Assembly: GCF_002272135.1 (NCBI RefSeq)
Contig: NZ_NPBF01000014.1
Span: forward strand, 1 to 64,000
Direction: 5' to 3'
DNA from: Virgibacillus sp. 7505
GTDB taxonomy: Bacteria > Bacillota > Bacilli > Bacillales > Amphibacillaceae
DNA length: 64,000 nt
Under the pieces are notes generated by a model, which saw only the letters and a list, made by a program, of their open reading frames with translations, searched no databases and had not been told where the DNA came from. The translations under genes were made by a program, and so were the position numbers. Shown here in pieces: positions 10,439 to 13,308 of this stretch (positions are counted from its first letter, which is position 1; each line of letters begins with the position of its first letter).

Positions 10439-11251
10439 ATGAAATCATTCAAAGACGCGTTCAAAAGTAGCAGTTTTGCACAAAAGATTAAGCCAGCAGG
10501 CAGCCGTAACTGCGAAACCTGCGGTAATGAATACAAAGTCTATGAAACTCCTGCAGGTGTACAAGGTGCATGTAAGACTTGCTCAGACAATGAACTTAAG
10601 AAGGGACTACCATTCATCGAAGACCTTCAAGAAAGACGTGAAAGAAACTTCATCGAAAAGTTTGAGCGCGTGCCTTGGGATCTCCATGAAGCCACTGTAA
10701 ATTCATTCAAACCAGATTCTGAGTATGCATCGCAAGGAGAAGCTAGAAATTTAGTGGCTCGATTCATTCAAGGGTTTGCCAACGATGAAGGGGCGTCGCT
10801 TGTATTGAGCGGTTCCCCCGGCCTTGGCAAAAGTCATCTTGCGTATGCTGCAGCTAAAGCACTGAAGCACCAGAACTACAAGGTCCTGTATATAAAAGCT
10901 TCGGATTTACTGGAGTACGTAAGAGGTACATTTTCACCGAAGTCGGAGCTTACTGAGACGCAGATATTCGACATGATATCAGGACTTGATTTGTTGGTGA
11001 TGGATGACGTAGGTGCTGAGTACGTGAAAATGAACGATCATGGCTACGAAACATGGGTGTCTGATGTTCTGTGTAAAGTGTTCGATCTACGACTCAATAA
11101 GCCCGTTATTTGTACAACTAACTATACAGAGCGGGAGCTAGCAACCAAATACGGGATGCACGGCAATCGTATTACTTCAAGGATGCTGCAGAACGCAAAA
11201 GGGATACGGCTAGAAGGCAAGGATCGTAGAAAAAGGGAGGATGCATTCTGA
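10439..11251 (+). CDS. DnaC/DnaI-like helicase loader ATPase
   Basis: Loads the replicative helicase at the phage origin. A zinc-binding N-terminus has Cys25, Cys28, Cys45 and Cys48. AAA+ motifs follow: Walker A GSPGLGKS (125-132), Walker B LLVMDD (185-190), sensor I CTTNYT and an arginine-rich C-terminus. 270 aa is typical. It follows the DnaD-like gene by 11 bp with a GAGGAGG site; its stop overlaps the next start. Confidence 0.95.
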   Translation: MKSFKDAFKSSSFAQKIKPAGSRNCETCGNEYKVYETPAGVQGACKTCSDNELKKGLPFIEDLQERRERNFIEKFERVPWDLHEATVNSFKPDSEYASQGEARNLVARFIQGFANDEGASLVLSGSPGLGKSHLAYAAAKALKHQNYKVLYIKASDLLEYVRGTFSPKSELTETQIFDMISGLDLLVMDDVGAEYVKMNDHGYETWVSDVLCKVFDLRLNKPVICTTNYTERELATKYGMHGNRITSRMLQNAKGIRLEGKDRRKREDAF

Positions 11252-11774: not shown

Positions 11775-12674
11775 ATGAACTCCATCGAATTATTTGCCGG
11801 AATTGGCGGAATCAGCCTAGCAGCTGAATGGGCAGGGATTGAAACAAAAGCATTTTGTGAGATTGAGCCATTTGCTCAAAGGGTCTTGAACAAGCATTGG
11901 CCGGATGTACCGATCTTTGACGATGTAAGAACACTTAATAAACAAGCATTGGAAAAAAGGGGAGTTGACGTTGGAGCAATTGAGCTTATTACAGGAGGAT
12001 TCCCTTGCCAGCCTTACAGTATTGCCGGGAAGCGAAAAGGCAAGGGAGATGACCGTGACCTCTGGCCAGAGATGTTTAGGATTATCAAAGAAATCAGACC
12101 CCGTTGGGTTGTTGGTGAAAACGTTGCTAACTTCGTCAACATGGAGCTCGACAGAACGCTTTTTGACTTGGAGAGTGCAGGTTACAAGGGGCAATCGTTT
12201 GTTATACCGGCTGCAGCCATCGGCGCCAAGCATGAGCGAATGCGGACATTCGTTGTTGCCTACTCCGACAGCATCGGACGGGACGACAGGCGGGATCATC
12301 GGGAAAAACGATACCTACAAGATGAACAAGACAGGAACACTGCGGAAGATAAATCAGAACGGATCGGACGGTTCAATAGGGCTGGGGAGGTACGTTCAGT
12401 TCTGGCCGACACCAAGAACCAAGGGAATGTGCGGAGGAACGGGATCTTTTCAGAAGATGATGGAGCTTCAGAACAAAGGAATCATAACGGAGAAGGAAAG
12501 AAAGCAAATGACTGCAGGGAATGGTGGTCAGTTGAACCCGACGTGGGTCGAGTGGCTAATGGGGTTCCCAATCGGGTGGACAGAATTAAGGGACTCGGAA
12601 ACGCGGTAGTGCCTCAGCAGATCTACCCGATATTCAAAGCAATCATGGACATTGAGAACAGAACACTTAGGTAA
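11775..12674 (+). CDS. DNA (cytosine-5) methyltransferase
   Basis: Methylates cytosine in DNA, probably shielding phage DNA from restriction. C5-MTase motifs visible: I LFAGIGG (6-12), IV GGFPCQPYS with catalytic Cys78, VI GENV (114-117), VIII AKHERMRTF, and X GLGNAVVPQ near the end. The target-recognition region is short and polar. The start at ATG 11775 begins directly at motif I. No restriction enzyme is adjacent, as usual for phage orphan enzymes. A second long frame overlaps it from 11971 to 12609. Confidence 0.96.
   Translation: MNSIELFAGIGGISLAAEWAGIETKAFCEIEPFAQRVLNKHWPDVPIFDDVRTLNKQALEKRGVDVGAIELITGGFPCQPYSIAGKRKGKGDDRDLWPEMFRIIKEIRPRWVVGENVANFVNMELDRTLFDLESAGYKGQSFVIPAAAIGAKHERMRTFVVAYSDSIGRDDRRDHREKRYLQDEQDRNTAEDKSERIGRFNRAGEVRSVLADTKNQGNVRRNGIFSEDDGASEQRNHNGEGKKANDCREWWSVEPDVGRVANGVPNRVDRIKGLGNAVVPQQIYPIFKAIMDIENRTLR
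11971..12609 (+). CDS. Second reading frame nested in the methyltransferase gene
   Basis: A +1-frame reading of about 212 codons without a stop, wholly inside the methyltransferase. TTG 11971 has AAGGGGAG six nt upstream; ATG 12232 is an internal alternative. The product carries motifs I know from phage proteins found beside or inside such genes: SLLPTPTASDG, a repeated WPTP, and near the end LNPTWVEWLMGFPIGWT. The same bases encode methyltransferase motif X just after. It may be a true dual-coding gene or a shadow frame conserved because the enzyme is conserved. Confidence 0.45.
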   Translation: MEQLSLLQEDSLASLTVLPGSEKAREMTVTSGQRCLGLSKKSDPVGLLVKTLLTSSTWSSTERFLTWRVQVTRGNRLLYRLQPSAPSMSECGHSLLPTPTASDGTTGGIIGKNDTYKMNKTGTLRKINQNGSDGSIGLGRYVQFWPTPRTKGMCGGTGSFQKMMELQNKGIITEKERKQMTAGNGGQLNPTWVEWLMGFPIGWTELRDSETR

Positions 12675-12687
12675 GGGGGAAAAGAAT

Positions 12688-13308
12688 GTGAATTTAAAAG
12701 CATTGTTTGAAACACAAGCAAAGTTGGAAGCAGATATTTTGGAGAAGCACCCGGTGCAAGAAGGCGAGGATAGACTCAGCAAGAAGATACTGGCGCTGCA
12801 AGTGGAGCTGGGAGAATGTGCGAACGAATGGCGCGGGTTTAAGTTTTGGAGTCTTAAGCAAAATCCGATTCAAAGTAAATGGTGTGAAAGATGCCAGGGT
12901 TCCGGAAAAATCTATGGCGGATCCTTGCTTAATGAAAAGGTATTAGACTGCTGGCACTGTGATGGAAAGGGTTCTACTAATCCTCTGCTTGAGGAGTACG
13001 TTGACTGCCTGCATTTCATTTTGAGTATTGGGTTGGAGTTAAATGCAAGGGACATAGTAATCGATGGTAATTATACAGAAGAAAATACAGTTAAAACATT
13101 TATCAAGCTATACGATGATATAACAATGATTCTAACGGACTTGGGAACAGATATTTTTCGAGGACATATAAGAACAGACTATGAAGAGCTATTTAATACC
13201 TTTATTGGATTAGGAGAAAAACATCTAGGCTTCACTTGGGAACAAATCGAACAAGCCTACTACGAAAAGAACATGATCAATCATCAACGGCAACAGTCGG
13301 GATATTGA
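12688..13308 (+). CDS. Dimeric dUTPase-like NTP pyrophosphatase with zinc-knuckle insert
   Basis: Hydrolyses dUTP to keep uracil out of phage DNA (dUTPase_2, all-alpha NTP-PPase). Metal-site motifs are ELGECANEWRGFKFW (about 40-54) and EYVDCLHF (103-110). Between them lies a two-Cys-pair insert, CERCQGSG and CWHCDGKG (Cys66, 69, 88, 91), that looks like a DnaJ-type zinc finger. The start is GTG 12688 after AAGGGGG. The insert falls in the usual short loop; its role is unknown. Confidence 0.88.
   Translation: MNLKALFETQAKLEADILEKHPVQEGEDRLSKKILALQVELGECANEWRGFKFWSLKQNPIQSKWCERCQGSGKIYGGSLLNEKVLDCWHCDGKGSTNPLLEEYVDCLHFILSIGLELNARDIVIDGNYTEENTVKTFIKLYDDITMILTDLGTDIFRGHIRTDYEELFNTFIGLGEKHLGFTWEQIEQAYYEKNMINHQRQQSGY

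Follow-up and report, generated by a model that had tools for sequence, protein, structure and literature searches.

The closest described counterpart of the locus reported here is the cytosine methyltransferase M.EcoHK31I, which recognises YGGCCR and has chains of near 309 aa and 23 kDa, the small chain being read in another frame inside the large gene. According to the title of Lee et al. 1995, the enzyme reportedly needs two proteins in vitro. Its large chain is described as carrying motifs I-VIII and X together with the recognition domain, and its small chain as carrying motif IX (PMC3404938); PMC3439449 describes the enzyme as split by nature, and PMC6456624 lists it alongside a type II restriction-modification system. 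M.AquI is described as another C5 methyltransferase of two polypeptides, split within the variable (recognition) region, and fragment complementation is described for M.HhaI, M.BspRI, M.BsuRI and M.SssI, that of M.SssI being best with a C-terminal fragment starting between motif VIII and the recognition domain (PMC3404938). A hidden out-of-frame coding region inside a methylase gene is described for mycobacteriophages as well, where the ShiLan domain encodes an HNH endonuclease (PMC11855218). For an orphan prophage C5-methyltransferase of Bacillus, a predicted target common to M.EaeI (YGGCCR) or M.EagI is given in PMC4722110.

In the window, that is, the whole 64,000-nucleotide stretch of Virgibacillus sp. 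7505 that was analysed, a C5 cytosine methyltransferase gene (M) contains a second gene (S) nested in its +1 frame (Table 1). The first-pass annotation had pointed to a +1 frame open for about 212 codons inside the methyltransferase, to a Shine-Dalgarno-like site of its own six nucleotides before a TTG and to recognisable motifs in both translations. All of these were confirmed, as was its remark that VEWLMGFPIGWT shares bases with the VPNRVDR stretch of the enzyme. M matched PF00145 with an E value of 5.1e-42 over residues 1-227, and all of the catalytic motifs I, IV, VI, VIII and X of this family are present. A profile of M relatives matched M.HhaI over profile positions 2-166 (motifs I-VIII), with motif X giving an insignificant match only. 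The motif set of M, I-VIII and X, is the one described in the motif layout of the EcoHK31I large chain, and S, like the EcoHK31I small chain, lies in another frame inside the large gene.

The locus also departs from EcoHK31I. The recognition domain belongs to the large chain in the account of EcoHK31I (PMC3404938), whereas the evidence here points to S. Moreover, EcoHK31I is listed with a type II restriction system, whereas no type II restriction-enzyme family was among the 25 of 44 neighbour families listed for relatives of the locus. The 44 Pfam families were assigned from 110 of the 123 ORFs that neighbour relatives in up to 75 of the 80 genome loci; phage and mobile-element functions made up most of the 25 listed, which also had a ResIII helicase in 2 members. 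M.AquI differs in that its small subunit has motifs IX and X, an arrangement shared by the split actinophage pairs Eagle gp78/gp77 and Leona gp41/gp42 but not by the nested M/S pair. ShiLan is described as a homing insertion encoding an HNH nuclease, whereas S overlaps the catalytic motifs themselves and gives no HNH endonuclease match (Pfam, E <=1). The locus is most likely a two-polypeptide C5-methyltransferase, a kind already known. A literature search found no description of this overlap as a family, and neither its spread over about ten bacterial phyla nor the dual selection and the release in fused relatives was found in print. The words methyltransferase and methylase were absent from the word-searched text of PMC8903798, and no EcoHK31I or EaeI genes were recognised in plasmids and E. 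coli genomes.

The neighbours of M include an IstB/AAA-type ATPase gene (10439-11251) and a gene for a dUTPase_2 protein (12652-13308), a neighbourhood that looks like a prophage replication module. The dUTPase_2 protein seems to have an inserted CxxC/CxxC zinc-ribbon-like stretch, where the Anti-TRAP and DnaJ zinc matches were weak and below curated cut-offs. A 160-aa antisense ORF (11817-12299) gave no Pfam match and was dropped.

Table 1 Coordinates of M, S and their sequence elements in the window
Feature	Position	Strand	Remark
M, C5 cytosine methyltransferase gene	11775..12674	+	299 aa, catalytic subunit, motifs I-VIII and X
M motif I FAGIGG	11793..11810	+	
Shine-Dalgarno-like AAGGGGAG	11957..11964	+	6 nt before TTG 11971
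S, nested +1-frame gene	11971..12609	+	212 aa plus stop; proposed target-recognition/motif IX subunit
Likely S start codon TTG	11971..11973	+	
M motif IV PCQ	12003..12011	+	
M motif VI ENV	12117..12125	+	
M motif VIII region HERMRTFV	12231..12254	+	
S first LLPTPTASD module	12253..12279	+	
M low-confidence stretch, residues 171-270	12285..12584	+	AlphaFold2 model
S second WPTP module	12403..12414	+	
S motif-IX-like LNPTWVEWLMGFPIGWT	12532..12582	+	M-frame image VEPDVGRVANGVPNRVD
M motif X GNAVVPQ	12597..12617	+	

Relatives were collected as 80 loci on viral contigs found through S, 80 loci on viral contigs found through M regardless of S, 80 loci in bacterial genomes and 16 loci in phage records. 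The bacterial genome loci are a biased sample, because they were found through an S alignment with the search pattern [WF]VEWLMG[FY]. Near-duplicates included, 235 of the 256 loci contained a full-length M and a full-length S in the same +1 register, and none contained S without M. In 20,000 synonymous-codon shuffles of the Virgibacillus M gene alone, the S span was left open in 0.02% and held a mean of 5.8 stops; the +2 frame of M has 17 stops over the same span. Among the distinct M genes (141 of 144 used), the +1 frame from motif IV to motif X contained 53 stops versus 586 expected from synonymous shuffles, and the +2 control gave 1968 versus 1977. The first-pass annotation had named +1 stops at many homologous loci as a sign against a real gene; 112 of these 141 loci had none. 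The motif patterns needed for a split by region were found in 92 M genes, 35 of them from the M query. In these 35 loci, the +1 frame had 0 stops versus 119 expected over motifs IV-VIII and 12 versus 125 in the recognition region, and in all 92 loci the figures were 1 versus 271 and 16 versus 215, respectively. Outside S, the 35 M-query loci exhibited no depletion, with 95 stops versus 87 expected after S and 179 versus 116 upstream, an expectation that is too low because the codon pool was that of the entire gene, in which +1 stops are scarce. The ordinary C5-methyltransferases of the source's bacterial family (25 of 29 used) likewise showed no depletion, with 421 +1 stops versus 437 expected and no open frame.

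Purifying selection acts on S over and above the constraint imposed by the enzyme frame. This was the separate per-frame examination that the first-pass annotation had suggested, and the lack of +1 selection that it had considered as evidence for the contrary was not what emerged. Each isolated change between the members of 37 disjoint nearest pairs was classed by what it does to M and to S (37 of 65 pairs; those left out had an identity <60% or no recognisable motif VIII pattern). Upstream of S, the effect in the S frame was irrelevant, with a dNN/dNS of 0.79 (0.41-1.56) and a dSN/dSS of 1.15 (0.82-1.85). The two ratios fell to 0.29 (0.19-0.43) and 0.32 (0.23-0.55) in the N half of S, and to 0.12 (0.08-0.16) and 0.13 (0.08-0.25) in its C half. 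Changes silent in M that created stops in S were found at 14 of 47 sites upstream, 0 of 142 in the N half and 4 of 89 in the C half. The per-site rates indicate that the first half is governed mainly by M and the second mainly by S: changes altering M only occurred at 0.047 per site versus 0.156 for those altering S only in the N half, and this order was reversed in the C half, where the rates were 0.204 and 0.058, a 3.5-fold difference. The 17 pairs from the M query alone gave a dNN/dNS of 0.27 in the N half and 0.15 in the C half and a dSN/dSS of 0.17 in the C half; their N-half dSN/dSS of 1.05 (0.36-3.70) is uninformative because it rests on only 3 SS changes.

The +1 frame is open from TTG 11965, its first start, or from TTG 11971, and ends with a stop codon at 12607-12609. 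The latter is the likelier start of S, because the codon matching TTG 11965 is TAG in three relatives (L091, L092 and L095). At the place of 11971, nine of the ten relatives printed have TTG or GTG, and L096 has CTG. An S-frame start with at least 6 Shine-Dalgarno bases at proper spacing was present in 35% of 205 distinct loci; synonymous shuffles gave 4%, and control windows further downstream gave 1%. With at least 5 bases, the corresponding values were 62%, 15% and 13%.

S matched the PHROGs family phrog_1008, labelled DNA methyltransferase, over S residues 3-208 (E 1.4e-31), as did all 89 aligned relatives. Searches of Pfam and NCBIfam (E <=1) and of PADLOC (E <=0.01) gave nothing for S, and a single relative out of 89 gave any Pfam match at E 0.01 (DUF2250, E 0.0043). 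The family name and that of the Mte8-like protein of Escherichia phage K1ind2 are database names of S proteins, labels without a subunit role, and in the text of the phage paper PMC5582158 Mte8 is merely named. The S profile found no relative among PDB sequences (best E 1.1). The structure model of S was modest (pLDDT 67.5, pTM 0.31); Foldseek returned no match at E <=0.001 (best E 0.98) and VIA-align nothing usable (best Z 2.9).

An AlphaFold2 single-chain model of M, built from a 75-sequence alignment, had pLDDT values mostly >90 in the catalytic part, lower at residues 71-100, and was confident again at the motif X helix. Residues 171-270 had block means of 41-65, and the only helices before that of motif X, at 169-186 and 202-206, were both of low confidence. 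The model suggests that M is without a folded target-recognition region between motifs VIII and X, and the poor fold at 171-270 is suggestive only, because the alignment is gappy there. It is this stretch that S covers with its PTP modules, followed near the S end by the motif-IX-like LNPxWVEWLMGFPxGWT, in which M199 and G200 of S are invariant in all 89 aligned relatives. This end segment resembles the motif IX found in ordinary enzymes, such as the TPIECERLNGFPDNWT of L282. Against this reading, profile-profile alignment (hhalign) gave no significant match of S to 25 ordinary C5-methyltransferases (E 0.78), nor of the S profile to the M profile. A C-terminal EPxVGRVAxGVPxRVDRLK of M is conserved before motif X, and its counterpart in alignments with ordinary enzymes is their motif IX-X region. 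In one IMG/VR contig (L021:2284-3298), M ends after motif VIII and the S frame continues through the motif-IX-like segment into an M-type end, EPDIPRVxGRIPNRAARIKALGNAVVP, so that the two C-terminal elements no longer overlap there. Since the EPxVGRVAxGVPxRVDRLK element is kept in this contig without the S overlap, M may itself contain a variant of motif IX, and M and S may share the work less cleanly than proposed.

Actinophages have relatives in which the same elements are arranged differently. In Moonbeam, MidnightRain and Fushigi, the equivalent of the C-half segment of S sits in the M frame and is followed by GNGVVPQQ, and the S-like segment of Tweety is also in the M frame. The S profile matched the M frame in four of five fused phage loci with 21-37 bits, Fushigi being the one without a match. 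The segment is encoded by a second gene in Eagle (gp78/gp77), Leona (gp41/gp42) and Getalong (gp85/gp86). Among 77 actinophage-type loci, 37 were fused, 12 had the motif in +1, 1 in +2 and 1 in frame 0 after a stop, giving 51 classified loci; of the 26 unparsed ones, 24 lacked the motif VIII pattern, 1 lacked M and 1 lacked motif IX. Counted as distinct loci, 35 were fused and 10 had the +1 segment. The 35 fused loci exhibited no +1 openness, with 47 stops versus 39 expected over motifs IV-VI and 98 versus 109 over VIII-IX, and some depletion over motifs VI-VIII (20 versus 36). In the 10 distinct +1 loci, motifs IV-VIII were not kept open either (16 versus 17 and 9 versus 10 stops), which means that the N half of S, about 95 residues, is missing there. 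A tree of the catalytic part separated the ordinary enzymes (100/100) and placed fused and split forms interleaved in an actinophage clade. The nested forms may have a single origin, to judge from a count of 2 changes on this tree (bootstrap range 1-2, the bootstrap not being settled). As a natural control, the fused enzymes provide what we consider the best evidence on the role of S, to which their sequences appear to assign the motif IX place; as they form one actinophage clade, they are not a phylogenetically independent control, and the relief of their +1 frame could in part be a clade effect.

The first-pass annotation had left the role of S unstated; on the evidence, M and S are quite probably two subunits of one C5 methyltransferase, with target recognition and motif IX provided in trans by S. 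Frame 0 would give M, the catalytic subunit with motifs I-VIII and X and seemingly without a folded target-recognition region, and an internal start with its own Shine-Dalgarno site would give S in the +1 frame. S would carry the region between motifs VIII and IX, with its PTP modules, together with the motif-IX segment. The two proteins would then assemble, S reading the target sequence and M transferring the methyl group. Phages probably use such methylation to shield their own DNA from host restriction. On the computational side, both frames are selected, S has start signals, the constraint is segregated between the frames and S is never without M in the 256 loci.

That the composition and codon use of the methyltransferase leave the +1 frame open by accident would be conceivable for one gene, as even the 0.02% of open shuffles might arise by chance in a large genome scan. 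It does not accommodate the shortage of +1 stops across 141 loci with the +2 frame at expectation, the confinement of this depletion to the S span, its absence from ordinary C5-methyltransferases, or substitution patterns that amount to purifying selection, and we reject such a shadow frame as having practically no probability unless the alignments are wrong. The choice offered by the first-pass annotation, between a widespread real overlapping gene and a shadow frame repeatedly annotated, is thereby narrowed: the former agrees with the full-length pairs in 235 of 256 loci and with the selection, and the latter fails on the stop depletion and on the ordinary-enzyme control. A real S could also be reached by ribosomal frameshifting from M, giving an M-S fusion and no separate subunit, and the occurrence of both fused and split forms in actinophages speaks for this. 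Start codons preceded by Shine-Dalgarno sites, however, are strongly enriched where S begins, which fits a separately translated protein better, and a shift near motif VIII would not require the S frame to be open from as early as motif IV, as it is. Furthermore, a frameshift fusion would lack motif X, as S stops before that motif is complete. We hold frameshifting to be very improbable.

Somewhat less remote, and still unlikely, is a real overlapping gene with a separate job outside the methyltransferase, for example as a regulator or a counter-defence protein. Such a job would agree with the lack of a sequence relative of S among solved proteins and of a detectable profile match to ordinary C5-methyltransferases, as well as with the selection on an N half that overprints the catalytic motifs. 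It is at odds with the constant company of M in all 256 loci, with the actinophage methyltransferase chains in which an equivalent of the S C half occupies the motif IX place before GNGVVPQQ, and with the want of a confident fold in M just where S is most constrained.

Both full frames were found in records titled as Bacillota, Bacteroidota, Pseudomonadota, Acidobacteriota, Actinomycetota, Chloroflexota, Chlorobiota, Verrucomicrobiota and Desulforhopalus (Thermodesulfobacteriota), and in a deltaproteobacterial bin that the tree tool puts in Myxococcota; the phylum labels are rough because many genome loci are metagenome bins. Within the source's class, the S profile matched 12 of 200 genomes, the source genome included. 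A Methanomethylovorans plasmid (NC_019972.1, about 275118-275864) encodes a methyltransferase that matches M at 34% and the S end weakly (E 0.1), and on this sequence similarity the nested form may reach archaea. One chromosome of an uncultured Roseovarius genome has five equal-scoring nested pairs (L210, L211, L214, L215 and L216), which are perhaps related prophages.

Several of the loci L150-L169, for example L169:2649-4241, have an S of up to 619 aa with many PTP modules; M has a matching long hydrophilic stretch in these long versions, and the +1 frame is still nearly stop-free. In the IMG/VR contig L154:2393-3957, both frames change register in the recognition region and one open frame joins the catalytic M to an S-type C-terminus, which is either a real variant or a sequencing error. 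The annotation of these genes is uneven. Both frames are annotated as methyltransferases in Leyra and as a C-specific methylase and an Mte8-like protein in K1ind2, and elsewhere S is recorded either as a second methyltransferase or as a hypothetical protein. In all five E. coli prophage loci examined, M is listed and S is unlisted, yet each has an open S frame that the S profile recognises. In the prophage of E. coli ECCTRSRTH03 (L307:2011-3222), the methyltransferase is annotated as two incomplete pseudogene pieces, a call that looks doubtful because M reads as a single open frame with S open beside it.

If the two-subunit reading is right, one half of a common phage enzyme is often missing from annotations, and the methylation specificity of these orphan enzymes could be neither predicted nor reconstituted from M alone. 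The family also represents a deep natural data set of two proteins sharing one sequence, with the overlap released in fused relatives. We see about an even chance that the nested C5-methyltransferases form an ancient class, carried by phages and mobile elements across many phyla. In such a class, one stretch of DNA would encode, in two frames that divide the constraint between them, a catalytic subunit that lacks a recognition domain and a modular subunit of ~150-620 aa that provides recognition. If so, few long nested gene pairs on one strand would be as widespread in prokaryotes, and S would be an exchangeable specificity subunit with a role comparable to that of HsdS.
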